Shown here one piece after another: positions 2-64,000 of a stretch of DNA of 64,000 nucleotides. The translations under genes and the position numbers were made by a program. Source of the DNA: Limosilactobacillus reuteri (GTDB lineage Bacteria; Bacillota; Bacilli; Lactobacillales; Lactobacillaceae); assembly GCF_020784725.1 (NCBI RefSeq), contig NZ_JAJGTZ010000044.1, positions 124,001-188,000 on the forward strand. The letters are read 5' to 3'. A model generated the notes under the pieces. The model was not told the origin of the DNA and did not search any database. It saw only the letters and a program-made list of their open reading frames with translations. Each line of letters opens with the position of its first letter. Position 1 is the first letter of the stretch.

Positions 2-817
2 GCCAAGATGAATTTAGCGATTAGAGGAATTGATAGTGATTTAGGCCCCCACCAAGGAGACACCTTCACTAATGATTTACATAAAGGTGTTCGTTTTAAC
101 TATATTTTGGCTAATCCACCATTCAACATTAAAAATTGGGGTGGCGAAAAGCTTCAAGAAGATGCTAGATGGAAATACGGTGTTCCACCAACAGGAAATG
201 CAAACTATGCCTGGATCGAACATATTATTAGTAAATTAGCACCAGATGGGAAAGCAGGCTTTGTCTTAGCTAACGGTGCCTTATCGACTTCTAATAAGGA
301 AGAATTTGCTATTCGTAAAGCGATTTTAGAAGATGATAAGATTGATGCAATTGTTGCTTTACCTGAAAAAATGTTTTATTCGACAGGAATTCCAGTTTCA
401 TTATGGTTTATTGATATGAATAAGGAATCTGAGGATGAACGCTCGCGAAAGGGTGAAACATTATTTATTGATGCACGTAATTTAGGTGAGATGATTGATC
501 GAACTCATCGTGCATTTAATGATGATGATATTAAAAAAGTAGCGGATACTTACCATGCTTACCGTGGTACAAATGATCAAGAATATAAGGATGTTGCTGG
601 CTTTTGTAAAATTGCGAAGTTAGATGAGATTGCAAAAAACGATTATGTATTAACTCCTGGCCGCTATGTTGGTCTTGCTAAACAAGAAGACGATGGCGAA
701 CCATACGAAGTTAAAATGAAGAGACTAACTAGTGAATTAAAAGAACAATTTGAGGAAAGTAACAAGTTACAAGCCCAAATTAAAGATGTATTGAAGGAGC
801 TTGGATATGAAATTTAG
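2..817 (+). CDS. hsdM: Type I restriction-modification DNA methyltransferase subunit HsdM (C-terminal part, gene starts before window)
   Basis: This is the C-terminal ~270 residues of the N6-adenine methyltransferase subunit of a type I R-M complex, which modifies the site chosen by HsdS using S-adenosylmethionine. The methyltransferase motif IV NPPF is visible near residue 38 of the visible part (ANPPFNIKNWGG), followed by the usual GFVLANGALST and MFYSTGIPVSLWF segments. The tail (from about position 690) is charged and probably coiled coil for subunit contact. The frame is already open at base 2, so the ATG at 8 is internal. The stop at 815-817 overlaps the start of the next gene, hsdS, which implies translational coupling. 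Confidence 0.95.
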   Translation, partial: AKMNLAIRGIDSDLGPHQGDTFTNDLHKGVRFNYILANPPFNIKNWGGEKLQEDARWKYGVPPTGNANYAWIEHIISKLAPDGKAGFVLANGALSTSNKEEFAIRKAILEDDKIDAIVALPEKMFYSTGIPVSLWFIDMNKESEDERSRKGETLFIDARNLGEMIDRTHRAFNDDDIKKVADTYHAYRGTNDQEYKDVAGFCKIAKLDEIAKNDYVLTPGRYVGLAKQEDDGEPYEVKMKRLTSELKEQFEESNKLQAQIKDVLKELGYEI

Positions 818-1340
818 GTTATCTGAAATTGGCAAGGTTGTTGGAGGTGGAACGCCATCAACTAAACACCCAGAATATTATACTGAATTAGGAATTCCAT
901 GGCTTACTCCTAAAGACTTGAGCGGATATAACAAGATGTTTATAGCAAAAGGCAGTAGGAGTATAACACATGAGGGATTGGCGAAGTCTAGCGCTAAATT
1001 GCTTCCTGCTAATAGCATTTTAGTCAGTTCTCGTGCTCCAATTGGCTACGTAGCTATTGCTAAAAATACCATTGCAACTAATCAGGGATTTAAAAGCATT
1101 ATTCCTAACGAAAAGTTAGTAATTCCTGAGTATTTATACTTTGTTATGAAAACTAGTAAACAAGATTTAGAGCAAATAGCTTCTGGATCAACTTTTAAGG
1201 AAATTTCTACTAAAGTCATGTCAAATTTTGAAGTTGATATACCCAGTTTAGATGAGCAGAAGAAAATATTAAGATATCTTTTACCAATTACCAGAAAAAT
1301 AGAGAAGAATAGTAAGATAAATGATAATTTAATGGTTTAG
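807..1340 (+). CDS. hsdS: Truncated HsdS: N-terminal target-recognition half (TRD1a)
   Basis: Encodes 177 residues corresponding to one target-recognition domain plus the first central conserved helix of a type I specificity subunit; full-length subunits are about 350-420 residues. The ATG at 807 is preferred over the TTG at 801 because AAGGAG at 794-799 sits 7 bases upstream. The protein begins MKFRLSEIGKVVGGGTPS, typical of a TRD, and stops just after the helix end SKINDNL, exactly where a 14-bp site (1318-1331) shared with three other places lies. It is co-oriented with and overlaps hsdM. In this configuration it lacks a C-terminal half, so it is likely a donor half-gene, or a half-subunit able to pair as a dimer. 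The inverted half-gene beside it would complete it in frame after inversion. Confidence 0.85.
   Translation: MKFRLSEIGKVVGGGTPSTKHPEYYTELGIPWLTPKDLSGYNKMFIAKGSRSITHEGLAKSSAKLLPANSILVSSRAPIGYVAIAKNTIATNQGFKSIIPNEKLVIPEYLYFVMKTSKQDLEQIASGSTFKEISTKVMSNFEVDIPSLDEQKKILRYLLPITRKIEKNSKINDNLMV
1318..1331 (+). repeat. HsdS inversion site 1
   Basis: TAAATGATAATTTA, coding for the (I)NDNL stretch at the end of the central helix in the truncated hsdS. Identical 14-bp copies lie at 1937-1950 (minus), 3435-3448 (plus) and 4048-4061 (minus). The match to site 4 extends to 17 bp (AGATAAATGATAATTTA). It is the presumed crossover region for the neighbouring tyrosine recombinase. Confidence 0.75.
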
Positions 1341-1963
1341 AAAAATTTATTTAATATCTCATTCCTCAGGGCAGTAAGTATTACATTCTGCTTTGAATTC
1401 TGTGTAATCAATAATAAAAGTTCTCCAATTTTATTTATTTGATCAATAGTAAAATTATCAAGAGTAGGAATAGGTAAGTTGCGTAAAGTTGATAATGATA
1501 TAAATTGTTGCGTACTGCCTGACAGATGAGAATTTATATAACTTTGCCCTTCTTTACTAATTAGATAAAGATAGACTAGGTTAGCAAGATCCGATGTTTC
1601 TCCTGCTTTAATTAAACCGACATTTTTTATTGCAAAGTTGACTGGATTTTCTATAACTTTATAGATAATACCTACTGTTCCAATCATACTAACAAGAATA
1701 TCATTTGTATTAACCTTACTTCTCTTATTTATTTCCTCAAAATCAAGTTTTGAAATTAACTTTGTTTTAGAAAAGTCTATGGTATTTTCTTTTATAGCTT
1801 TAGATGTAACAAGAGGGTAACCAGTTTTTTGCTGTTTAGGAGAATTATGAGTCCCATCTCGTACATCTAATAGTTTTTTCAAAGCAACATATTGTTCTTT
1901 CTTAACAGAATCAAAATATGCAGTTGTAAATTTAAGTAAATTATCATTTAATCTACTAAGCAT
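1337..1963 (-). pseudogene. hsdS: Inverted hsdS C-terminal half-cassette (TRD2a), silent
   Basis: A 208-residue reading frame on the opposite strand to hsdM/hsdR. It starts inside the conserved helix (SRLNDNLL), runs through one target-recognition domain (KKLLDVRDGTHNS ... SGSTQQFISLSTLRNLPIP) and ends in the C-terminal conserved segment LRNEILNKFF, like NKYF at the end of the complete hsdS downstream. It has no N-terminal TRD and no convincing ribosome binding site before the ATG at 1963. It is therefore best read as a stored cassette rather than an expressed gene. Inversion between sites 1 and 2 would fuse it in frame to the truncated hsdS at 807, giving a subunit of about 375 residues. Confidence 0.8.
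1937..1950 (-). repeat. HsdS inversion site 2
   Basis: Reverse-complement copy of TAAATGATAATTTA at the 5' end of the inverted TRD2a cassette. The codon phase (aat gat aat tta, NDNL) is the same as at site 1, so recombination with sites 1 or 3 gives in-frame chimeras. Confidence 0.75.
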
Positions 1964-2005
1964 CTCTCTGTGGTGTATTATTTTTCAAAAACGGAGAATT
2001 GATTC

Positions 2006-2980
2006 ATGCAAAGAGTAGAGTCTGAAAAATTGATTCAAAAAATGTTGCCATACTTGAATAATCAACAATTATTATGTCTAAGAAATGCACTAGATGAACT
2101 AATTACTACGGGGAATAAACAAGTAGATAGTTATAAGGATAACCAACAGTTACTTGCTAAATACTTTGCTTCTAAAAGAGCAGAAGGATGCTCGGAAAAA
2201 TCGTTAAAGTACTATAAAACTACCATTACTAAAGCTCTGTCCTCAATTGGTAAAAATGCTAAAGAAATCGTGACAGATGAGCTACGTAACTATCTGACTA
2301 ATTATCAAGAAGTTCATAACTCTAGTAAGGTAACTATTGATAATATTAGAAGAATCCTTTCTAGCTTTTTTAACTGGTTAGAAGATGAGGACTATATTAT
2401 CAAGAGCCCAGTAAGAAGGATTCATAAGGTTAAGGTTTCAACAACTGTGAAGGAAACCTACACTGACGAAGAATTAGAAAAGTTACGTGATAATTGTAAG
2501 AATATTCGTGATTTAGCAATGATTGATTTCCTTGCTTCAACAGGTATGCGGGTTGGAGAATTGGTATTGTTGAATAGAGATGATATTAATTTTCAAGAGC
2601 GTGAATGCATTGTTTTTGGTAAAGGTAGTAAAGAAAGAATTGCTTATTTTGATGCAAGGGCTAAATTGCATTTGCAGAAATATTTATATACTCGTACAGA
2701 TAGTAATGAAGCATTATTCGTTTCGTTATATAAGAAACATACACGATTAACAATTGGGGGAGTTGAATCACGATTAAAGCATTTAGGTAAAAGATTAGGA
2801 ATTTCGCGTGTATATCCACATAAATTTAGAAGAACGTTAGCTACAACAGCAATAGATAAGGGAATGCCGATCGAACAATTACAGCGTCTTTTAGGACATA
2901 AACGAATAGATACAACTTTACATTATGCGATGGTTAAACAACAAAATGTAAAGATAGCACATAGAAAGTATATAGGGTGA
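2006..2980 (+). CDS. Tyrosine recombinase (XerC/D-like), probable HsdS invertase
   Basis: A 324-residue site-specific recombinase of the phage-integrase family. The SAM-like core-binding domain covers roughly residues 40-140 and the catalytic domain 150-320. Visible catalytic residues are R182 (STGMRVGEL), H272 and R275 (PHKFRRTLA), H298 (LLGHKR) and nucleophile Y307 (TLHYAMV). GGAG at 1993-1996 lies 9 bases before the ATG. The gene lies between the inverted hsdS cassette and the complete hsdS, and its stop is only 6 bases before the latter's GTG. This is the usual place for the dedicated recombinase that shuffles hsdS halves, as in the pneumococcal SpnIII-type loci. Dedicated action on the 14-bp sites is inferred from context. 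Confidence 0.92.
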   Translation: MQRVESEKLIQKMLPYLNNQQLLCLRNALDELITTGNKQVDSYKDNQQLLAKYFASKRAEGCSEKSLKYYKTTITKALSSIGKNAKEIVTDELRNYLTNYQEVHNSSKVTIDNIRRILSSFFNWLEDEDYIIKSPVRRIHKVKVSTTVKETYTDEELEKLRDNCKNIRDLAMIDFLASTGMRVGELVLLNRDDINFQERECIVFGKGSKERIAYFDARAKLHLQKYLYTRTDSNEALFVSLYKKHTRLTIGGVESRLKHLGKRLGISRVYPHKFRRTLATTAIDKGMPIEQLQRLLGHKRIDTTLHYAMVKQQNVKIAHRKYIG

Positions 2981-2986
2981 TGGAAT

Positions 2987-4042
2987 GTGAAAAAACAATT
3001 AGGGGAAATTGCTAATCTAAAATATGGGAAGATGCCTAATAAAGATTTAATCCGAGATAGTGGATATCCAATATTTACGGGTTACAAAATATCTGGGTTT
3101 TATCCAATTTATATGTATGATAAGTCTGTAATTATTGTTGTTGCTCGTGGTGTTGGCGGTACAGGAGATGTAAAGATTGCCCCACCAAAATCATTCATAA
3201 CTAATTTATCAATTATAGTGGATATTATTAATGATAAGCTTATAAATAAAAAATATTTACAGCTTCTTTTAGGTAGCTTGAATTTACGCAATCTAGATTC
3301 TGGGTCAGCTCAATCTCAAATTACTATTGCAGCTTTGTCTAAAGTCGAGTTAGACTTGCCAAAGAAAGATATTCAAGATGAAATTGCAAGTAAAATTGAA
3401 CTGATAGAGAGAAAAATACAACTTAATAAAAGAATAAATGATAATTTAGATGCTTTATTAACTAATATATTCAAAAAATATATGATTAATGACGATTTTG
3501 AAAAATCAGACTTAACTCAAATTGCAAATTATAAAAATGGGTTAGCTATGCAAAAGTATAGGCCTAATTCTAATGAAGAAAGCTTACCAGTTCTTAAAAT
3601 AAAAGAGTTAAATCAAGGAAATACTGATGATTCGTCCGATAGATGTTCGGCTAATCTTGATAATTCTGTAATAGTTAATACTGGCGACATAATTTTTTCG
3701 TGGTCAGGAACTTTATTAGTAAAAAATTGGACGGGAGACAAAGCAGGTCTTAATCAACATTTATTTAAGGTTACCTCTAATAAGTATCCTGCATGGTTTA
3801 TCTATGAATGGACTAAGTATCATTTATTGAGGTTTCAAGCAATTGCCGCTGGAAAAGCTACAACCATGGGTCATATCAAAAGAAGTGATTTAAAATCATC
3901 ACCAGTATATATTCCCTCTCAATTATTTTTAGAGAAAATGGATAGTCAACTAGCACCAATTTATAGTCAAAGATTAAACCTAATTAAAGAAAATCAACAA
4001 TTATCGAAACTTAAGCAGACTTTGCTTAATAAATATTTTTAA
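2987..4042 (+). CDS. hsdS: Complete type I specificity subunit HsdS (TRD1b + TRD2b)
   Basis: The 351-residue specificity subunit that directs HsdM and HsdR to a bipartite DNA target. TRD1 covers about residues 1-120, the first conserved helix 125-160 contains NKRINDNL, TRD2 covers 170-300, and the terminal helix ends LLNKYF. It starts at GTG 2987 behind AGGGTGATGG; no ATG fits. This is the only complete hsdS in the present configuration and is co-oriented with hsdR. Inversion sites lie in the central helix (3435-3448) and just after the stop (4048-4061, opposite orientation), so its second half is itself an invertible cassette. Its TRD sequences differ from those of the two half-genes, implying different DNA targets. 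Confidence 0.92.
   Translation: MKKQLGEIANLKYGKMPNKDLIRDSGYPIFTGYKISGFYPIYMYDKSVIIVVARGVGGTGDVKIAPPKSFITNLSIIVDIINDKLINKKYLQLLLGSLNLRNLDSGSAQSQITIAALSKVELDLPKKDIQDEIASKIELIERKIQLNKRINDNLDALLTNIFKKYMINDDFEKSDLTQIANYKNGLAMQKYRPNSNEESLPVLKIKELNQGNTDDSSDRCSANLDNSVIVNTGDIIFSWSGTLLVKNWTGDKAGLNQHLFKVTSNKYPAWFIYEWTKYHLLRFQAIAAGKATTMGHIKRSDLKSSPVYIPSQLFLEKMDSQLAPIYSQRLNLIKENQQLSKLKQTLLNKYF
3435..3448 (+). repeat. HsdS inversion site 3
   Basis: TAAATGATAATTTA within the central helix of the complete hsdS (codes NDNL, same codon phase as sites 1 and 2). It marks the junction between TRD1b and TRD2b. Confidence 0.75.
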
Positions 4043-4047
4043 GCTGC

Positions 4048-4061
4048 TAAATTATCATTTA
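4048..4061 (-). repeat. HsdS inversion site 4, outside the gene
   Basis: Reverse-complement copy of the 14-bp site (17 bp identical to site 1), 5 bases after the hsdS stop and upstream of hsdR. With site 3 it brackets TRD2b as an inverted pair, mirroring sites 1 and 2 around TRD2a. Being noncoding here, its conservation argues for a recombination role rather than a coding constraint. Confidence 0.75.
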
Positions 4062-4095
4062 TCTCCCTAAATCAAACAGAAAGAGGTGATTTATT

Positions 4096-7000
4096 GTGGC
4101 AAGTTATCTTAACGAAGAAAATATCGAGGGCATTGCTTTAAGATGCCTTGATGAAGCTGGCTATCAAGTCTACAAAAGTGCTAGTTATACTAGCCCGAAT
4201 GCAGAAATAGATGCTGAGAGAAATAATGATCATACACAATCTATTTTAAAAGGACAATTAGAAAACGCCTTACGCAAATTAAATCCTGGGTTTAATGATG
4301 AAGTATACCGTAATGCCATTCATCAATTTGAGATGCTAGCAGATAGCCCAGATATGATGCTTAATAATCATAAGCTTCATGAATTAATTATCAGCGGAGC
4401 AAAAGTAAAAACATCAATTAAAGGTGAAGACCGAACTATAACTTTGTATCCGATTGATTTTAAGAATGTTGATAACAATACTTTTGTTGCAACAAATCAA
4501 TTTACAATGAAACAAGGAGAACATGAAAGAAGACCAGACATTACTCTTTTTATTAATGGGCTTCCTTTAGTTACATTTGAATTAAAGAACCCAGCAAATG
4601 CGAATGTAGGTATTCAACAAGCTTTTGCCCAATTTTCTACTTATAAAGAAGAGATATCTTCTTATATGCAATATAACGAAATTTTAATTGTTTCTGATGG
4701 GATTAATGCGCGAGCTGGGTCATTAACAGCAGGAATTGATCGCTTTATGCGGTGGCGCGAGCCGAAAAATGTAGATATTGACGATTCAATGATGGAATTA
4801 GAAATATTGATAAAATACATGCTTACCCCATCTGATTTATTAAACATCATTCAGAATTTTATTCTTTTTGAAAGTGATGGCGATAAGACAATCAAGATTT
4901 TAGCAGCATATCATCAATACTATATGGTTAATAAAGCTGTAAAAAGAACATCAAAAGTATTGGCTGATCCTGATGACAAACGAATTGGTGTTGTTTGGCA
5001 TACGACTGGTTCTGGTAAATCATTGTCGATGGTCTTTTATTCTGGAATAGTAGCTCGTAAACTTGGTAATCCAACTATTTTAGTAATTAACGATCGTAAT
5101 GATTTAGATGATCAGTTATTTGGTACCTTTGCGGCTGCTCATGAATATCTACAACAAAACCCCGATCACGCTGAATCACGAGGAGAAGTTCGTAAGTATA
5201 TGAGTAAGAATTCTGGCGGGATTGTTTTTAGTACAATCCAGAAATTCTCACCAAACTTTGATACAGGTGAAGAACATATGCCTATACTTACAAACCGTTC
5301 TAACGTTATCGTAATGGTTGATGAAGCTCATCGGTCTCAATATGGAATGCAAGCAAAACTAACCGATAATGGTATTCGTTATGGATATGCTAAATATTTG
5401 CGTGAGGCTCTTCCTAACGCCTCATTTATTGGTTTTACAGGAACACCAATAAATACTGAAGATAAATCTACCGTGGCAATGTTTGGAAATTACATTGATG
5501 TTTATGATATTACTCAAGCAGTTAATGATCATGCCACGGTCCGGATTTATTATGAAAGTCACGTTTTCCCATTAAAGCTTAAGGACAATGCAATTGATGA
5601 ATATCAAAAGTTAATTAAAGAAGCTGGTATCAATGACGATCCTAATCTTAGGGAAACTGAGCGACGGAATCGGGCATTTACTAGATTAGAGGCCCTTGCC
5701 GGTGCAAAACCACGGTTAGAAAAAATAGCCCAACACTTTGTTCATCATTTTGAATCACGACAAAAGGAAGAATTTGGTAAGTCGATGATTGTTGAAATGT
5801 CACGACAAAATGCAGTAAAGCTATATAATGAAATTGCAAAATTACGTCCTGAGTGGATCAATGATGATATTCATAAGGGAAAAATCAAAGTTATTATGAC
5901 ATCTAATGCTTCTGATGGCCCAGAATTTGCTAAATTTAAGACAAGCAAACAAGATCGATTTACGTTACAACAACGAATGAAAGATAACAATGACGAATTA
6001 CAAATTGTAATAGTGGTTGATATGTGGTTAACGGGCTTTGATGTTCCAAGCATGAATACCATGTACATTGACAAGCCAATGCAAGGACATAATCTTATCC
6101 AAGCAATTGCTCGTGTTAATCGGGTGTTTAAGAATAAAGATAGTGGGCTAATTGTTGATTATATTGGGATTGCTGATGCTCTTCGTTTTGCCTTAAATGT
6201 ATATACAAAGGATGACCAAGGAAAAGTTGGAATTAATGTTGATCGTGCACTAATGCTTCTAAAAGAGAAATATGACATTATTAAAGAAGATTTCCTATAT
6301 GGGATTGATTACTCAGAATTTGATTCTGATGATAGCCAAACTCGTCAGAAGGCAGTTACTCGTGTTGTAAATGAATTAGCTGCAGAGGACGATGAAACAA
6401 AGCAAAAATTCTTTGATGTAGTAACAGAACTTCAAAAAGCTTATGCATTAGTTTCAACACAGCCTGAAGCCCAAGATTTAAGCGCGGAGATTGCATTCTT
6501 TAAAACGGTTAAAGTATTTTTAACTAAACTTGAGGCTCCTGATAATCCAGACGATAGTAAGGAGATTCATAGCTCAGTCGATTATCGAATGCAACAACTA
6601 TTAGATCAATCAATTATTTCAGAGCCGAACGTTGACATTTATCGTGACCTAGGATTAGAACGCCCTAACTTAGATTTAATCTCAGAACAATTTCTTGAAA
6701 AAGTAAATGAAATTACTGAGAAAGATCTAGCAATTACTCTTTTAGAGAAACTGTTAAAAGGGCAAGTAAAAGCCTACCAAAAAACGAATATTGTTAAAGG
6801 CAAGAAGTTTGAGGAATTACTTCAAGAGTCAATTGATGATTACAATAAGCGGGGAATTACCAGTGAAATTGTAATTAGAAAGTTAATTGATATGGCTAAG
6901 GAAATTAATAAAGAACAACAAGAAGGTAAGAATCTGGGACTTTCAAAAGAAGAAGTGGCTTTTTATGATGCACTAGCTGATCATGAGAAAGCTGTTCAAG

Positions 7001-7221
7001 AATTAGGAGAAGAAAAGTTACATCTTATTGCTGCTGAATTAGTAAAGACTGTAAAGCAACAATCAGGGGTCGATTGGGAGCGGCGCAGTAATGTTCGTGC
7101 TAAAATGCGTGTTGCAGTTAAACATCTACTACGTAAGTACGGTTATCCACCTGATATTGCTCCAGATGCAATTAAGACCGTAGTAAAGCAAGCTGAACAA
7201 ATGGCTTCTCAAGAGAGCTAA
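4096..7221 (+). CDS. hsdR: Type I restriction endonuclease subunit HsdR
   Basis: The 1041-residue motor/nuclease subunit, which translocates DNA with ATP and cleaves unmodified DNA at a distance. The PD-ExK-type nuclease region is near residues 147-166 (RPDITLF ... FELKNP). Walker A is at about 302-309 (TTGSGKSL), the DEAH box at about 408 (VDEAHRSQ), helicase motif III is GFTGTPI and motif VI is QAIARVNRVF. The C-terminal helical region joins the complex. Start is GTG 4096, 5 bases after AGAGGTGAT. It follows the complete hsdS by 53 bases that contain inversion site 4, and ends at a strong terminator. Full length, no damage seen, so restriction should be active with the current HsdS. Confidence 0.96.
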   Translation: MASYLNEENIEGIALRCLDEAGYQVYKSASYTSPNAEIDAERNNDHTQSILKGQLENALRKLNPGFNDEVYRNAIHQFEMLADSPDMMLNNHKLHELIISGAKVKTSIKGEDRTITLYPIDFKNVDNNTFVATNQFTMKQGEHERRPDITLFINGLPLVTFELKNPANANVGIQQAFAQFSTYKEEISSYMQYNEILIVSDGINARAGSLTAGIDRFMRWREPKNVDIDDSMMELEILIKYMLTPSDLLNIIQNFILFESDGDKTIKILAAYHQYYMVNKAVKRTSKVLADPDDKRIGVVWHTTGSGKSLSMVFYSGIVARKLGNPTILVINDRNDLDDQLFGTFAAAHEYLQQNPDHAESRGEVRKYMSKNSGGIVFSTIQKFSPNFDTGEEHMPILTNRSNVIVMVDEAHRSQYGMQAKLTDNGIRYGYAKYLREALPNASFIGFTGTPINTEDKSTVAMFGNYIDVYDITQAVNDHATVRIYYESHVFPLKLKDNAIDEYQKLIKEAGINDDPNLRETERRNRAFTRLEALAGAKPRLEKIAQHFVHHFESRQKEEFGKSMIVEMSRQNAVKLYNEIAKLRPEWINDDIHKGKIKVIMTSNASDGPEFAKFKTSKQDRFTLQQRMKDNNDELQIVIVVDMWLTGFDVPSMNTMYIDKPMQGHNLIQAIARVNRVFKNKDSGLIVDYIGIADALRFALNVYTKDDQGKVGINVDRALMLLKEKYDIIKEDFLYGIDYSEFDSDDSQTRQKAVTRVVNELAAEDDETKQKFFDVVTELQKAYALVSTQPEAQDLSAEIAFFKTVKVFLTKLEAPDNPDDSKEIHSSVDYRMQQLLDQSIISEPNVDIYRDLGLERPNLDLISEQFLEKVNEITEKDLAITLLEKLLKGQVKAYQKTNIVKGKKFEELLQESIDDYNKRGITSEIVIRKLIDMAKEINKEQQEGKNLGLSKEEVAFYDALADHEKAVQELGEEKLHLIAAELVKTVKQQSGVDWERRSNVRAKMRVAVKHLLRKYGYPPDIAPDAIKTVVKQAEQMASQES

Positions 7222-55796: not shown

Positions 55797-56188
55797 TGCA
55801 AGTTTTGGGTAATTGAGCACAGCTTATGTTGTGTTAGGAAGGTCCATGCTCGCACAGGCTGCGATGCCTGTAGTGTTTGTGCTCGCTGAAAAAATAAGGC
55901 GGGGCACCATTTTATGGTGACGGCGGAAAAACAGGCTAAGGTTTTAACTATGTCTTAGTATTCCTGAAAAGTGCCACAGTGACGATACAATATCGGAAAC
56001 GATATTGGTGGAACGCGGTAAACCCCTCAAGCGGTAAACCCAAACTACGGTAGGGGAGCTTTGGATAACAAATTGAAGTGATTCCAGGGGAGAGTATTTC
56101 GGTACTCTGAGATAGATGATTACCTCGATATAATTATGCCTGATAATTATATTATGACAAAACATGGCCTACAGATACTTGCATACAG
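55797..56188 (+). ncRNA. rnpB: RNase P RNA, type B
   Basis: Catalytic RNA for tRNA 5' maturation. Conserved blocks seen in order are AGGAAGGTCCATGCTCGCAC, GTGCCACAGTGACGATA, GGTGGAACGCGGTAAACCCC, CCCAAACTACGGTAGGGGAG, ATAGATGATTACC and ACAAAACATGGCCTACAG. P1 closes with TGCAAGT (55797-55803) and ACTTGCA (56177-56183). The ends are approximate. It lies after gpsB as in most Firmicutes. Confidence 0.96.
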
Positions 56189-59399: not shown

Positions 59400-59846
59400 T
59401 TGTTACTTGGGATCGCTATTGGAATTATTTTAATTTTAACAATTTGTGACCAATTATTAAAATGTTGGGTTGCTTCATCACTTGTTCTTGGTGGTAGTAA
59501 ACAGCTAATTCCTGGTATTGTCGAGTTAACTAATTTACGAAATTCAGGTGCTGCTTGGAGCATTTTTGAAGGGCAACAGACTTTTTTTACCATTATAACC
59601 ATTATTGCAATTATTGTAATTGGTTACTTTATCTGGGAGTACCGGAAAAATATCCCTATGCTAATCGGACTATCCTTGATTATGGCAGGAACAATTGGCA
59701 ACTTTATTGACCGGTTAAGACAAGGGTATGTTGTGGATATGTTTGAAACAACATTTATTAAATTTCCAATTTTTAACATTGCGGATATGTGCTTAACAAT
59801 TGGCGTAATCTGGCTAATAATTTGCATCTTAAAGGAGAAAGACTGA
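59400..59846 (+). CDS. lspA: Prolipoprotein signal peptidase (signal peptidase II)
   Basis: A 148-residue four-helix aspartic protease that cuts the lipoprotein signal peptide. N-terminal DQLLKCWV, NLRNSGAAWSIF, the first catalytic Asp region GNFIDRLRQGYVVDM and the second FNIADMCLTIG are all present. It starts at TTG 59400 directly after the ebsA stop, behind GGGGG. Confidence 0.94.
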   Translation: MLLGIAIGIILILTICDQLLKCWVASSLVLGGSKQLIPGIVELTNLRNSGAAWSIFEGQQTFFTIITIIAIIVIGYFIWEYRKNIPMLIGLSLIMAGTIGNFIDRLRQGYVVDMFETTFIKFPIFNIADMCLTIGVIWLIICILKEKD

Positions 59847-59849
59847 CAA

Positions 59850-60761
59850 ATGTCTGAAAAATTAGAATTAATAATTGATAGTGAGATGGTTGGAAGGATT
59901 GATAAGCAACTTGGCCATCACTTTGATCAATTTTCCCGATCACAAATCCAACATTGGATAGAAAATGGTCATGTCCTTGTTAATGGCAAACAAGTAAAAC
60001 CTAAATATAAGTTGCTTGCAGGTGACCACGTCCAAATAATCCCAGAAGAACCACAAAAAATTGATTTAGCACCTGAGAATATTCCTCTTGATATTATATA
60101 TGAAGATGATGATGTTATTGTCGTTAATAAACCGCAGGGGATGGTAGTTCATCCCGCACCAGGCCATCCAGACCATACGCTTGTAAATGCGCTTTTATAT
60201 CATTCGCCATTGTCAACTATTAATGGAGAGTTTCGGCCAGGGATCGTTCATCGGATTGATAAGGATACCTCAGGACTATTGATGGTAGCAAAAAATGATA
60301 TGGCACATCGTTCTTTGACAGCTCAACTAAAGGCAAAAACTAATAAACGAGAATATATTGCACTTGTGCATGGAGTCATAAAAGAAGATAAAGGAACAAT
60401 TGATGCTCCATTGGGTCGCTCATTAAAGGACCGCAAGAAGCAGGCAGTTGTGGTTGATGGACGTCATGCGGTAACGCATTTTAAGGTGTTAGAACGGTTT
60501 AAAAATTATACCTTAGTTGCCTGCCAGTTAGAAACGGGACGAACTCATCAAATTCGCGTTCATATGAAATATATTGGCCACCCGCTGGCAGGAGATCCAT
60601 TATATGGACCGCGAAAAACACTTGCTGGCAACGGCCAATATTTACATGCTCGGTTGTTGGGTTTTAAACACCCCCGAACAGGCAAAGAAATGATTTTTAC
60701 GGCTCCATTACCAGCCTATTTCACAAAAATGCTTGAACATTTACGCAAGACAGACCAATAA
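59850..60761 (+). CDS. rluD: 23S rRNA pseudouridine synthase RluD
   Basis: A 303-residue RluA-family enzyme. The N-terminal S4 domain (about residues 14-75) is followed by the catalytic motif HRIDKDTSGLLMVAKN with D139 as nucleophile. ETGRTHQIRVHMKYIGHPLAGDPLYG matches RluD/YlyB. It follows lspA by 3 bases, the standard lspA-ylyB pair that in many Firmicutes precedes the pyr operon. Confidence 0.93.
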   Translation: MSEKLELIIDSEMVGRIDKQLGHHFDQFSRSQIQHWIENGHVLVNGKQVKPKYKLLAGDHVQIIPEEPQKIDLAPENIPLDIIYEDDDVIVVNKPQGMVVHPAPGHPDHTLVNALLYHSPLSTINGEFRPGIVHRIDKDTSGLLMVAKNDMAHRSLTAQLKAKTNKREYIALVHGVIKEDKGTIDAPLGRSLKDRKKQAVVVDGRHAVTHFKVLERFKNYTLVACQLETGRTHQIRVHMKYIGHPLAGDPLYGPRKTLAGNGQYLHARLLGFKHPRTGKEMIFTAPLPAYFTKMLEHLRKTDQ

Positions 60762-60837: not shown

Positions 60838-61923
60838 GTGACAGCACGATACCTAATATTTGAAGATGGCTCAATTTTTGCTGGCGAAGGTTTTGGTTCA
60901 CCAGCTGTTACTTTTGGTGAAGTTGTTTTTAATACCAGTATGACTGGTTACCAAGAAATCATTACTAATCAGGTTTATAATAACCAAATTGTCGTTTTTA
61001 CCCAGCCGAATATTGGGAGTTACGGCATTCAACGTAATATTTATGAATCGATTGTACCAACAATTAAAGGAATTATTGTTCGTTCCCTTGCCGATGCTGG
61101 TACTGATGATAATGGACGGCAATTGACACTTGATAAGTACCTTCAACAAATGAATATTCCTGGAATCGCTAACATTGATACGCGGGCAGTAGTTCATAAG
61201 TTAAGAAAAGCGGAAAAGCCATTAAAAGGAAGCATTGTTCCAGTTCCAGATGATCACGCTTTTGACCAGCTTCACGCGACTGTTTTAACGAACCAGCAAG
61301 TTGCCCAAGTCTCTACTCCTAAACCATATCCTAATCCCGGAATTGGGCTAAGTGTTGTTGTGATTGACTTTGGATTAAAGAACGGAATATTACGGGAATT
61401 AAGTCGGCGAAAATGCAATATTACTGTCTTACCATATACCGCAACCGCTGAAGAAATATTACGATTAGATCCTGATGGAGTTGTACTTTCAAGCGGTCCT
61501 GGAAACCCAAATAATGTCCGTAAATCAGTTCTGGAAATGATTCGTACTGTCCAAACTAAAGTGCCGATGTTTGCTATTGGACTGGGCCATGAATTATTTG
61601 GAATCGCCAATGGAGCAAATGTTCAGCAAATTCCAGTCGAACATCATGGAATGAATCATCCAATTCATGAAATTATTACTGACCACATTGTCTATGCGAC
61701 TCAGGCAGAAGGGTACCTGATTGATCGCAATTCAGTTGACCGCTCCCAGCTTTTTATTACATACGTTGATATGCTTGATAATAGTGTTCAAGGGCTTCGT
61801 CATCGTCGTTATCCAGCATTTTCAGTTCAATTTTTTCCTGATGGCGCACCGGGGCCCGATGAAACTGATGGCTTGTTTGATGAGTTCGTCGATACAATGA
61901 ATAGGAGGGGGGATCGTCATTGA
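60838..61923 (+). CDS. carA: CarA-like carbamoyl-phosphate synthase small subunit lacking the glutaminase triad
   Basis: A 361-residue homologue of the amidotransferase subunit. The N-terminal interface domain is well kept (FEDGSIFAGEGFG, FGEVVFNTSMTGYQE, GIANIDTRAVVHKLRK) and the C-terminal domain has the class I glutaminase fold (VLSSGPGNP). All three catalytic residues are replaced: the Cys of the ICLGHQ motif is G248 (AIGLGHE), and the His and Glu of QYHPEA are F333 and D335 (QFFPDG). The substrate-loop QNHGY is QAEGY. It should not hydrolyse glutamine. It starts at GTG behind AGGAGAG and overlaps carB (ATGA). The 76-base leader shows no PyrR attenuator. Confidence 0.9.
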   Translation: MTARYLIFEDGSIFAGEGFGSPAVTFGEVVFNTSMTGYQEIITNQVYNNQIVVFTQPNIGSYGIQRNIYESIVPTIKGIIVRSLADAGTDDNGRQLTLDKYLQQMNIPGIANIDTRAVVHKLRKAEKPLKGSIVPVPDDHAFDQLHATVLTNQQVAQVSTPKPYPNPGIGLSVVVIDFGLKNGILRELSRRKCNITVLPYTATAEEILRLDPDGVVLSSGPGNPNNVRKSVLEMIRTVQTKVPMFAIGLGHELFGIANGANVQQIPVEHHGMNHPIHEIITDHIVYATQAEGYLIDRNSVDRSQLFITYVDMLDNSVQGLRHRRYPAFSVQFFPDGAPGPDETDGLFDEFVDTMNRRGDRH

Positions 61924-64000
61924 TGGAAAAGTTGAAATCTGTATTGATTATTGGAGCAGGAGCTAACGATGTTCAACACGGGGATGAGCTTGATTCTGCT
62001 ATTTACCAAGTTTCACGAGTTTTTAAACAAATGAAGATAAAAACTATCTTAGCAGATGATAATCCATTTTCGGTAAGCTTAGAAAATGTTGATCACGGTT
62101 GTATTATCCCATTAAAAGTCGAAAGTCTAGTGGATATTATTAATAAGTTTCATCCAGACGCAATTTTACCTACGCTAGGTAATCGGCGAGCTTTTGAACT
62201 TACCCAAGAATTGCTAGAAAAGGGAATTATTCGTAAAGAAAATATTAAACTGCTAGGAGTTCCTGAGGCAACTGTTCGTCAAATTAATAGCGCTGTTTTA
62301 CTTGAACGAACGCTTCGTCAAATGGAAGCCCCGGTTAAGAAAAGCGTAACGGTTAATAATTACCAGGATGCTTTGGATGAGGCAACTAAACTAGGATATC
62401 CAGTTATTATTAGGTCGGTATTACCGAAGAGTAGTAGTACACGTAAAATTGTGCATGATCGAAGTGAATTGGCAAATGCGGTAAAGGTTTGTTTGAGCCA
62501 GTCGCGGGCGGAACAAGTAGTAGTTCAGCAAAGTCTTGCCGGCTATAAGGAAATTGAAGTCGTCGTTCAACGTGATAGCTCTGGAACAATGATGATGTTG
62601 TCAATGATTGAGGATATGGACCCAATTGGTATCCATGCTGGTGATTCAATTGCCTTCAATCCTGTTCAAACACTTCGCGATCGGCAGATTCAAGACATTC
62701 GGGATACGGCTTTTGCTATTACCCGCAAATTAAGAATTGTCGGCACAAATCATATACAGTTTGCCCTAAACCCAAATAGTGATCGTTTTTATGTCATTAA
62801 GAGCAGTCCATACTTTGATCGAATTACAGCGTTTGTGGCGCAATCAACTGGTTACCCAATTGCTCAAGTAACAGCACAATTATATGCGGGAAAGCATTTG
62901 CGGGACATTGATCTTGGGGAAAATTATGTTCATCATGCAGCTCTTATTGAACCAACGATGGATCATATTGCTGCACGAGTTCCAATATGGGGATTCAGCG
63001 ATTTACCAAAAGCTAGTCGGTTACTTGGAACGGAAAAACGGTCGGTTGGGACGGTTTTTGGTATCGGTCGCAGTACTATTGAAGCGCTTTTCAAAGCTAT
63101 CGAATCCCGTTATCACGAGCCAGCTGACTTTCATCTTGCCGCCCAAAAGCAATTGACTGATGACCAATTAATCGCCAAAATTGTCCATCCAGAAGCAGGA
63201 CGACTTTTTGTATTAATTGAAGCAATGCAGAGAGGGTATTCAGTTAACGAATTAGCAGAGATGACAAAGATTGACCCATTTTATTTTGAACAAATTAATA
63301 AAATGCGGCTGTTGATTCGGGAAATTACTGAGCATCCAAATAAAGAACCGGTTTTACAAAAAGCAAAGAGTTACGGCTTAAGCAATCAACTTATTGCAAG
63401 ACTATGGAAAACTACCCCTGAGCAAGTTTATCAGATGAGTTTAGATCACCAATTGTTGACAAGGTACAAGGAAATCGAACCATCAGCCGGAGAGTTTGAT
63501 CAACATACTTATAGTTTTTACTCTGCCTATGAAGAAGAAAATGAAATTAGTCGAACTTCCCAACCGAGTGCCCTTGTAATTGGCACCGGGGGACTACGAT
63601 TAGGATTAAGTAATTCTGGTGATTACTTTGTTGCTATGATATTAAAAGAGCTTCATAATGAGGGCTTTAATAATGTCATTGTAAATTCGAATCCTAGTTC
63701 AGTTACCTTTAATCCAGAGTTAGCTGAAAAACGCTATGTTGAGCCAGTAACGATTGAAAATATTTTGCAGATATTACGGATAGAGCAACCCCAGTATTTG
63801 TTTATTCCTGCTAGTTATAGTAAATTATTGACATCATTGCAGAATTATGACTTAGATGTAAAAATCATCGTAATTCCAGATGAATTACCAACTACTGCTG
63901 CTAGTAGCGATAGGCAACGTTACTCCTTCAATTATGTCTATGATGGTAATTATGCTTATCCATTAGGGACAATGACTGATCTTTTTTCGCCAATTGCATT
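61923..64000 (+). CDS. carB: CarB-like carbamoyl-phosphate synthase large subunit with degenerate ATP-grasp motifs (3' end beyond window)
   Basis: At least 692 residues, open to the window edge. Overall layout is CarB: MDPIGIHAGDSIAFNPVQTL, QFALNPNSDRFYVI, STGYPIAQVTAQLYAG, GTEKRSVGTVFGIG, then the YSFYSAYEEENE junction to the second half. Key sites are lost: the N-terminal GSGPIVIGQ loop reads GAGANDVQH, the glycine loop of RPSFTLGGTGG reads RSVLPKSSS, the Mg-binding EVNPR is KSSPY (K293, S295), and the second-half GSGPIRIGQ reads GTGGLRLGL. No frameshift or stop is seen. Catalysis by the canonical route looks impossible. Confidence 0.88.
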   Translation, partial: MEKLKSVLIIGAGANDVQHGDELDSAIYQVSRVFKQMKIKTILADDNPFSVSLENVDHGCIIPLKVESLVDIINKFHPDAILPTLGNRRAFELTQELLEKGIIRKENIKLLGVPEATVRQINSAVLLERTLRQMEAPVKKSVTVNNYQDALDEATKLGYPVIIRSVLPKSSSTRKIVHDRSELANAVKVCLSQSRAEQVVVQQSLAGYKEIEVVVQRDSSGTMMMLSMIEDMDPIGIHAGDSIAFNPVQTLRDRQIQDIRDTAFAITRKLRIVGTNHIQFALNPNSDRFYVIKSSPYFDRITAFVAQSTGYPIAQVTAQLYAGKHLRDIDLGENYVHHAALIEPTMDHIAARVPIWGFSDLPKASRLLGTEKRSVGTVFGIGRSTIEALFKAIESRYHEPADFHLAAQKQLTDDQLIAKIVHPEAGRLFVLIEAMQRGYSVNELAEMTKIDPFYFEQINKMRLLIREITEHPNKEPVLQKAKSYGLSNQLIARLWKTTPEQVYQMSLDHQLLTRYKEIEPSAGEFDQHTYSFYSAYEEENEISRTSQPSALVIGTGGLRLGLSNSGDYFVAMILKELHNEGFNNVIVNSNPSSVTFNPELAEKRYVEPVTIENILQILRIEQPQYLFIPASYSKLLTSLQNYDLDVKIIVIPDELPTTAASSDRQRYSFNYVYDGNYAYPLGTMTDLFSPIA

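Follow-up and report, generated by a model that had tools for sequence, protein, structure and literature searches.

A conserved, apparently inactive carbamoyl phosphate synthetase-like pair in Limosilactobacillus reuteri and its family, frequently linked to pyrR

The closest described relative of the gene pair discussed here is the two-subunit carbamoyl phosphate synthetase (CPS) of Escherichia coli, CarA/CarB (PDB entries 1c30 and 1bxr). The pair lies at the end of a stretch of 64,000 nucleotides of Limosilactobacillus reuteri (NCBI RefSeq assembly GCF_020784725.1, contig NZ_JAJGTZ010000044.1, positions 124,001 to 188,000 of the forward strand; G000:C38:124001-188000 in our labelling), referred to below as the window. 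It shares with the E. coli enzyme the two-gene arrangement, the domain order and a CarA of about full length, whereas it is without the catalytic cysteine and histidine, the Mg ligands and the first-half glycine loop; in its CarB-like protein the second ATP-grasp domain is cut down and the allosteric domain is absent, which leaves 824 amino acids (aa) compared with the 1073 aa of E. coli CarB. In human CPS1, the cysteine of the N-terminal glutaminase-like domain is replaced while both synthetase sites are kept, and the enzyme is active and uses ammonia. The pair resembles CPS1 in the natural loss of the glutaminase nucleophile from a retained domain, but differs from it in that all of its sites are altered.

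Two further systems offer partial parallels. An inactive dihydroorotase is present in aspartate transcarbamylase (ATCase) complexes and in CAD-like proteins and is reported to be needed for ATCase assembly (PMC6022934); it likewise appears to be a dead enzyme of the pyrimidine pathway kept for a non-catalytic role, although the enzyme is another one. In Lactiplantibacillus plantarum, the regulator PyrR2 is reported to respond to inorganic carbon, and the passage concerned names no part of a CO2/bicarbonate sensor (PMC3582564); the pyrR gene beside the pair in this species is, by elimination, pyrR2 (see below). In the literature searched, which omits most subscription journals and key L. plantarum papers, the pair is not described.

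Judged by its sequences, the pair is almost certainly a conserved pseudo-enzyme with a role other than that of a CPS. The CarA-like protein exceeds the curated cut-off of TIGR01368 (347.9 versus 307.35 bits), and relative to E. coli CarA it carries Gly in place of Cys269, Glu in place of Gln273, Val in place of Ser47 and Phe in place of His353. The roles of these residues, and of the CarB residues named below, we take to be those established in work on the E. coli enzyme. The title of PDB entry 1c30 names a C269S mutation. The CarB-like protein remains under the curated cut-off of TIGR01369 (507.4 versus 1027 bits), and relative to E. coli CarB it carries Lys in place of Glu299, Ser in place of Asn301, Tyr in place of Arg303 and Ala in place of Arg129, while Arg169, Glu215, Gly241, His243, Gln285 and Arg306 (E. 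coli numbering) are unchanged.

A preliminary description of the window, made from the sequence alone, had proposed that both subunits are stripped of catalytic motifs within a persistent operon and reading frame, and most of its observations hold. The CarB-like frame (61920-63998) shows zero stops over 693 codons and continues to its own stop (L007:4395-4397), 397 bases past the window end on the same contig; with this 3' end in hand, the gene comprises 824 codons from the ATG at 61923, or 825 from an alternative TTG at 61920. The ATG overlaps the TGA stop of the CarA-like gene (61921-61923), as had been noted, and the three family landmarks are present: IGIHAGDSI (62625-62651), TGYPIAQV (62847-62870) and YSAYEEENE (63519-63545). 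The account of the lost motifs stands in part. The E-x-N of the Mg ligands is gone, the first ATP-grasp has lost its ATP-binding loop, the second ATP-grasp is largely missing, and there is no allosteric domain at the C terminus; the N-terminal glycine motifs, however, survive, intact in the first half (IGAGAND) and altered in the second (IGTGGLRLG, 63579-63605).

The same replacements recur across the genus. Copies of the pair from Limosilactobacillus were aligned with CarA/CarB of E. coli MG1655 and with 20 normal pairs from the same genus; a CarB fragment (L060) is a gap in this alignment and was excluded from the wider one described below, and the broken CarB of one genome (L059) was also excluded. 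Cys269 and Gln273 are replaced by Gly and Glu, respectively, in all 49 CarA-like rows, His353 by Phe in 48 of them (Tyr in the remaining one), and Ser47 is changed in all 48 rows with a residue at that position; the 20 normal CarA proteins have Cys, Ser and His without exception and Gln in 19 cases. The 48 CarB-like copies all carry Lys at position 299, Ser at 301 (45 copies) and a changed residue at 303, their glycine loop is eroded, and each retains the six unchanged residues listed above. In 49 of 49 rows the six positions checked between 715 and 761 of the second ATP-grasp and the five checked between 948 and 993 of the C-terminal allosteric (MGS) domain are gapped. Neither E299K nor C269G occurs in any of the 20 normal genus copies, and the fixation of both is more than chance. 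At least 95% of the 20 normal copies share one residue, and at least 95% of the pseudo pair another, in 16 of 356 CarA columns and 42 of 818 CarB columns, C269, Q273, H353, N283, E299, R303 and M378 among them. In these columns, active-site positions included, one near-fixed residue has been swapped for another; they have been re-fixed and are not decaying.

Matches to the pair were found in 50 of 50 genus genomes, 48 of which hold an uninterrupted full-length frame, so that the widespread frameshifts the preliminary description had named as a possible refutation are not seen. The two genomes not counted as intact are G009, where the frame is broken, and G015, where a fragment lies at a contig end. 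Purifying selection is indicated by median dN/dS ratios of 0.017 for the CarA-like gene, 0.032 for residues 1-630 of the CarB-like protein and 0.088 for its C-terminal part (Nei-Gojobori method, 15 pairs, of which 14, 13 and 13 gave a value while the others were saturated; the near-identical pair L036/L037, with noisy ratios of 0, 0.29 and 0.58, was retained); six normal pairs gave 0.015-0.13. The CarA-like proteins of G025 and G039 are 95.8% identical despite a dS of about 2. In the wider alignment of 114 CarA-like and 101 main-type CarB-like rows, which include some species twice, position 299 is Lys or Arg in every one of the 101; main-type here denotes all rows except L127 and L178-L189, with frames of 817-906 aa.

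Two genus records call for separate mention. G009 (L059) is the sole genus genome with a broken CarB-like frame; its CarA-like frame is intact, and a broken pyrB and a broken normal carB lie within about 18 kb of the broken CarB-like gene. In G035 (L010, L062), alone among the genomes whose loci were compared, carB precedes carA, and it does so at the normal as well as the pseudo locus, with junctions of a few bases; this record looks re-ordered or artificial.

Structure prediction agrees with a retained scaffold. An AlphaFold2 model was built for the L. rudii orthologue with 24 relatives, including the window part; the window CarB-like protein is 85% identical to the L. rudii protein over its part, and the CarA-like protein 91% identical to its L. 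rudii counterpart, which places the organism in Limosilactobacillus. The model (pLDDT 84, pTM 0.87) aligned in VIA-align to residues 3-923 of 1c30_A with a Z of 43.1 and an rmsd (root mean square deviation) of 3.1 over 801 residues, compared with a Z of 21.7 for the best chain that is not a CPS. According to the model, the CarB frame of both halves survives and the second ATP-grasp is pared down.

Beyond the genus, a profile built from the C-terminal part found matches in 320 of 397 family genomes, the weak matches including cross-matches to normal CarB; because of these, pseudo forms were judged by frame length and residues on fetched loci. Forty loci were chosen for spread (36 of the family and four Streptococcus-type), and Gly replaces Cys269 in all of them. 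Named carriers are Lactiplantibacillus, Levi-, Secundi-, Lenti-, Pauci-, Furfuri-, Api- and Limosilactobacillus, Weissella and Periweissella; among the matches listed, several genera seem to have normal CarB only. In a set of 80 named loci, 26 CarB proteins measure 826-892 aa, and 24 of these have a partner CarA with the motif I-G-LGHE, the exceptions being M-G-LGHE in L210 and a missing CarA in L213; the other 54, of 1058-1123 aa, are paired with the CarA motif IC-GHQ (GYQ in one). Variant CarB-like proteins also occur. Those of about 800 aa (g4, g8, g35) retain Glu299 in five of five read, and those of 1055-1068 aa (g27, g37, g40) have the MGS domain, as judged by length only.

Some loci differ more strongly. 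In genus g43, which is Streptococcus by a 98.6% match of the CarB of G447, four loci (L178-L181; G658, G454, G441, G434) have pyrR, in three of four cases pyrB, and a CarA with Gly for Cys269; their CarB is just 583-591 aa long and retains E299 and N301 in three of four, and normal CarB was not found in these genomes. Sequence identifies them as a second, differently degraded, putatively dead CPS. In two genomes of genus g67 (G656, G625; L155, L156, L172, L173) CarB matches only as frames of 483-507 aa and separate frames of 278-332 aa, and these CarB genes are perhaps split. G013 (L070) holds a second, very divergent CarAB pair beside the usual one, with a CarB of 1036 aa and a CarA end branch of 2.44.

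In a CarA tree, inferred by a quick method with long branches and with eight active-site columns removed, the 43 main pseudo rows form one clade with a support of 100 that spans many genera. A recent copy of the organism's own CarAB is thereby ruled out. As the clade sits beside the normal CarA of Limosilactobacillus, Lactobacillus and Liquorilactobacillus (support 93), the split of the pseudo CarA from the normal one appears to be old. Constraining the main clade, the forms of about 800 aa and the full-length Lactobacillaceae forms to one clade gave a p-AU (p value of the approximately unbiased test) of 0.786 and a likelihood above that of the free tree; when the Streptococcus-type forms were added, the p-AU was 0.286. 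Neither grouping is rejected, and neither test demonstrates a clade.

The preliminary description had also suggested that the pair might modulate the true enzyme, and this fails for the organism at hand. The genome (2.0 Mb, 43 contigs, 99.96% complete) contained no second CarB in a search for ATP-grasp domains, the best match being AccC. Across the genus, a normal CarB frame (1036-1123 aa) was found in 30 of 50 genomes, none in 19, and a broken one in G009; 13 of the 19, the window's own genome and 12 others, are at least 90% complete. Modulation of a true CPS is therefore rejected for the genomes in which no normal CarB was found. The organism's own pyr operon (L278:3837-4750, C27) comprises pyrB, pyrC, pyrD, pyrF and pyrE; it lacks carAB, and a break interrupts the pyrD frame after 171 codons. 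The genome carries arcB-arcC as well. Of 47 genus genomes, 42 have a pyrB above its cut-off, and G009 has a broken one.

In the wider family the pair is frequently linked to the gene of the pyrimidine regulator PyrR, which, as judged by gene family and order, is within the cluster in 36 of the 40 chosen loci; pyrC, pyrD, pyrF and pyrE are in none of them. In six genomes (G245, G159, G200, G123, G273, G128) the pyrR at this locus is the only one found. The record of L. plantarum EGD-AQ4 reads lspA-rluD-pyrR-psA-psB, where psA is the CarA-like gene and psB the CarB-like one, with pyrR 33 bases upstream of the pair, and contains two pyrR genes that are 66% identical. In its near-twin G365, the locus pyrR is 100% and the pair 99-100% identical to those of EGD-AQ4, and the second pyrR, whose position is taken from G365 and not from the EGD-AQ4 record, heads pyrB-pyrC-carA-carB-pyrD-pyrF. 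Because this other copy heads the pyr operon, the copy beside the pair is, by elimination, likely to be PyrR2. In PMC7911632, pyrR2 is lp_1782 and pyrR1 is lp_2704, and a legend lists lp_0526, lp_0527 and lp_2700 as CPS genes with differential expression.

Other arrangements place the pair near uracil uptake or pyrimidine genes: the order is pyrP-psA-psB in g27 and pyrR-pyrP-psA-psB in g40, and pyrR-pyrB is upstream of the pair in three Streptococcus-type loci. At two loci (L187:9148-12101 and L188:9334-11680), a gene of the uracil-permease type immediately precedes the pseudo CarA, with a PyrR RNA element upstream and a likewise degenerate CarB of 1063-1068 aa. The PyrR RNA leader (RF00515) was found in four of 20 scanned pseudo loci (L178, L179, L187, L188), none of them main-type. 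The same scan scored the pyrB leader of the organism's own genome and the pyrR1 leader of G365; its sensitivity is limited, as it missed normal Liquorilactobacillus and Latilactobacillus leaders. Within the genus, all 39 good genomes have a pyrR. Where inspected, it is outside the cluster of the pair, though in two of the three genomes read in which a normal pyr operon is close by it lies within about 8-13 kb of the pair.

The genomic site provides a view of the pair's origin. In the window the order on the forward strand is lspA, a name we assign from knowledge of the family, then rluD and the CarA-like and CarB-like genes (Table 1); past the window end, a convergent NFACT-type gene comes next. 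The 40 chosen loci include, in addition to the neighbours tabulated, NFACT within the fetched stretch in 21, pyrP in two and pyrB in three. The normal carB locus adjoins rluD in six of nine named genomes (Bacillus, Gottfriedia, Enterococcus, Vagococcus, Latilactobacillus, Liquorilactobacillus), and in the four of these that were annotated the sought genes follow the order lspA-rluD-pyrR-pyrB-pyrC-carA-carB-pyrD-pyrF-pyrE; in Bacillus, Enterococcus and Liquorilactobacillus the complete pyr operon comes after rluD. Because the normal carB locus or pyr operon adjoins rluD in such genera, the pair is placed at the ancestral site of the pyr operon, and it probably either remains from that operon or arose within it as an old, possibly tandem, duplicate. 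A tandem duplicate is possible since three loci have normal carAB no more than about 10 kb from the pair, in two different orders: pyrR-carA-carB, 2 kb, lspA-rluD-psA-psB (L315, G033); pyrR-pyrB-pyrC-carA-carB, 4 kb, lspA-rluD-psA-psB (L316, G028); and lspA-rluD-psA-psB, then pyrB-pyrC-carA-carB-pyrD, with the normal carAB downstream on the same strand (L317, G011). Coordinates suggest a similar closeness in G003, G027 and G029. Such near neighbours weaken the idea of a remnant, not that of a sensor.

Table 1. Features of the window discussed in the text, with their positions.
Feature	Position	Strand	Basis or occurrence
lspA, signal peptidase II gene, upstream neighbour	59400..59846	+	open reading frame; in 25 of 40 chosen relatives' loci
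rluD-type pseudouridine synthase gene, directly upstream of CarA-like	59850..60761	+	open reading frame; in 35 of 40 chosen loci
CarA-like putative pseudo-glutaminase subunit, 361 aa	60838..61923	+	CPSase_sm_chain and GATase domains
Codon GGA (Gly) at nucleophile Cys269 site	61579..61581	+	all 114 aligned CarA-like rows carry Gly
Codon TTT (Phe) at catalytic His353 site	61834..61836	+	non-His in 112 of 114 rows
CarB-like putative pseudo-synthetase subunit	61923..64000, runs 397 bases beyond the window	+	open reading frame; CPSase_L_D1, D2 and D3 domains
KSSSTRK replacing first-half ATP-grasp glycine loop	62427..62447	+	alignment to E. coli CarB
K-S-S-P-Y replacing Mg/ATP ligands E299-x-N301-x-R303	62799..62813	+	alignment
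RNase P RNA, class B	55801-56176

Elsewhere in the window, positions 8-7221 hold type I restriction-modification genes; several partial specificity frames, lying on both strands, surround a recombinase, and by eye the arrangement looks like an invertible hsdS system.

How might such a pair act? Given its bicarbonate- and ATP-binding ancestry, the absence of Mg ligands and of a glutaminase, the conservation of parts of the first pocket and the adjacent regulator gene, it is most simply understood as a binding protein that reports a ligand. An ancient CPS at the ancestral pyr site (lspA-rluD-pyrR-...-carA-carB-...) would have lost glutamine hydrolysis, bicarbonate phosphorylation and carbamate phosphorylation and, dead in its chemistry, would have been retained as a two-subunit binding protein, presumably a heterodimer. 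A ligand such as bicarbonate or a nucleotide, bound in the first (carboxyphosphate) pocket that the pair has kept, would set the shape of the pair, which through a presumed contact with PyrR would alter PyrR or the PyrR-controlled expression of genes for pyrimidine synthesis and uracil uptake. In L. plantarum, the pair would then supply the piece still lacking from the PyrR2-dependent response to inorganic carbon. In genomes in which no pyrB was found, it would act on genes of uptake or salvage, which suits the loci of g27 and g40 that contain pyrP. The adjacency of pyrR, by elimination that of PyrR2 in L. plantarum, is new support for the sensing of bicarbonate, nucleotides or carbamoyl phosphate that the preliminary description had put forward.

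The favoured reading, in which the pair is a non-catalytic partner of PyrR or a sensor that works together with PyrR or by way of it, comes close to an even call, falling slightly on the doubtful side. Several observations weigh against it: pyrR is outside the cluster at the window locus, in L112 (Paucilactobacillus-type) and in g37 (L127, L189); no PyrR RNA element was found at the window locus or in 16 of the 20 pseudo loci scanned; the pair may adjoin pyrR simply because both descend from the old operon; and the pair need not serve pyrimidine synthesis, because it is intact in G002 (99% complete), G025 (92%), G039 (86%) and G020 (66%), in which pyrB was not found. The main rival is a repurposed, non-catalytic pair unrelated to PyrR, which might, for instance, serve another enzyme as a scaffold or work in connection with rluD, its pyrR linkage being a relic. 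Genus copies are strongly constrained although pyrR is outside the cluster at the window locus, the pair is kept where pyrB was not found, and rluD is a neighbour in 35 of the 40 chosen loci; against this stand the presence of pyrR in 36 of these clusters, from all of which pyrC, pyrD, pyrF and pyrE are absent, and its detection in every good genus genome. We consider such a role a tentative, smaller but substantial possibility. Taken over all readings, bicarbonate as the ligand is rather improbable, about half as likely as action through PyrR, and it is slightly less probable still that the pair is the inorganic-carbon sensor of lactobacilli, with bicarbonate in the carboxyphosphate pocket, with or without a nucleotide, as the signal passed to PyrR or PyrR2. 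On that last reading, Lactobacillaceae may have undergone the conversion a single time, and some streptococci either separately or in the same event.

Three further explanations fare less well. The first half of the CarB-like protein might still catalyse an ATP-grasp reaction, be it residual or changed, with ammonia taking the place of glutamine or with another acid or amine as substrate. The first ATP-grasp fold is retained in the model, and Arg/Lys169, Glu215, His243, Gln285 and Arg306 are conserved in most copies; yet Glu299 has given way to Lys or Arg throughout the main type, Asn301 and Arg303 are mostly changed, the glycine loop is eroded and the checked positions of the second ATP-grasp are absent. 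This counter-argument is weaker for the Streptococcus-type and roughly 800-aa forms, eight of nine of which keep Glu299, but on balance remaining catalysis is unlikely and the pair would, by its sequence, have lost its activity. A regulatory decoy that assembles with a normal CPS subunit, CarA or CarB, and so alters its activity would fit the homology to both subunits and the co-occurrence with normal CarB in 30 genus genomes, sometimes within 10 kb; it fits poorly with the 13 nearly complete genomes, the window's included, in which the pair is retained and a search found no normal CarB, and is quite improbable. Finally, the loss of catalytic motifs and the broken copy in G009 might recall a decaying pseudogene or an assembly artefact, which is ruled out for practical purposes by the intact frames in 48 of 50 genomes, the low median dN/dS (about 0.02-0.03), the fixed replacements and the recurrence in many separate genomes. 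These findings, together with the co-retention of both subunits, argue instead for the pseudo-enzyme pair with another role that the preliminary description had envisaged.

The pair would represent a two-subunit metabolic enzyme whose active sites were lost together and whose dead complex has since been kept by strong selection throughout a large family of bacteria found in food and the gut. Because at least the small subunit passes a curated model for working enzymes, annotation-based reconstructions may credit such organisms with CPS-derived carbamoyl phosphate that they lack. Beside pyrR, the pair is a concrete candidate for how PyrR2-dependent control answers inorganic carbon, and if the sensor reading is true, a whole metabolic enzyme would have become the sensing half of a two-part regulator that acts at the RNA level.

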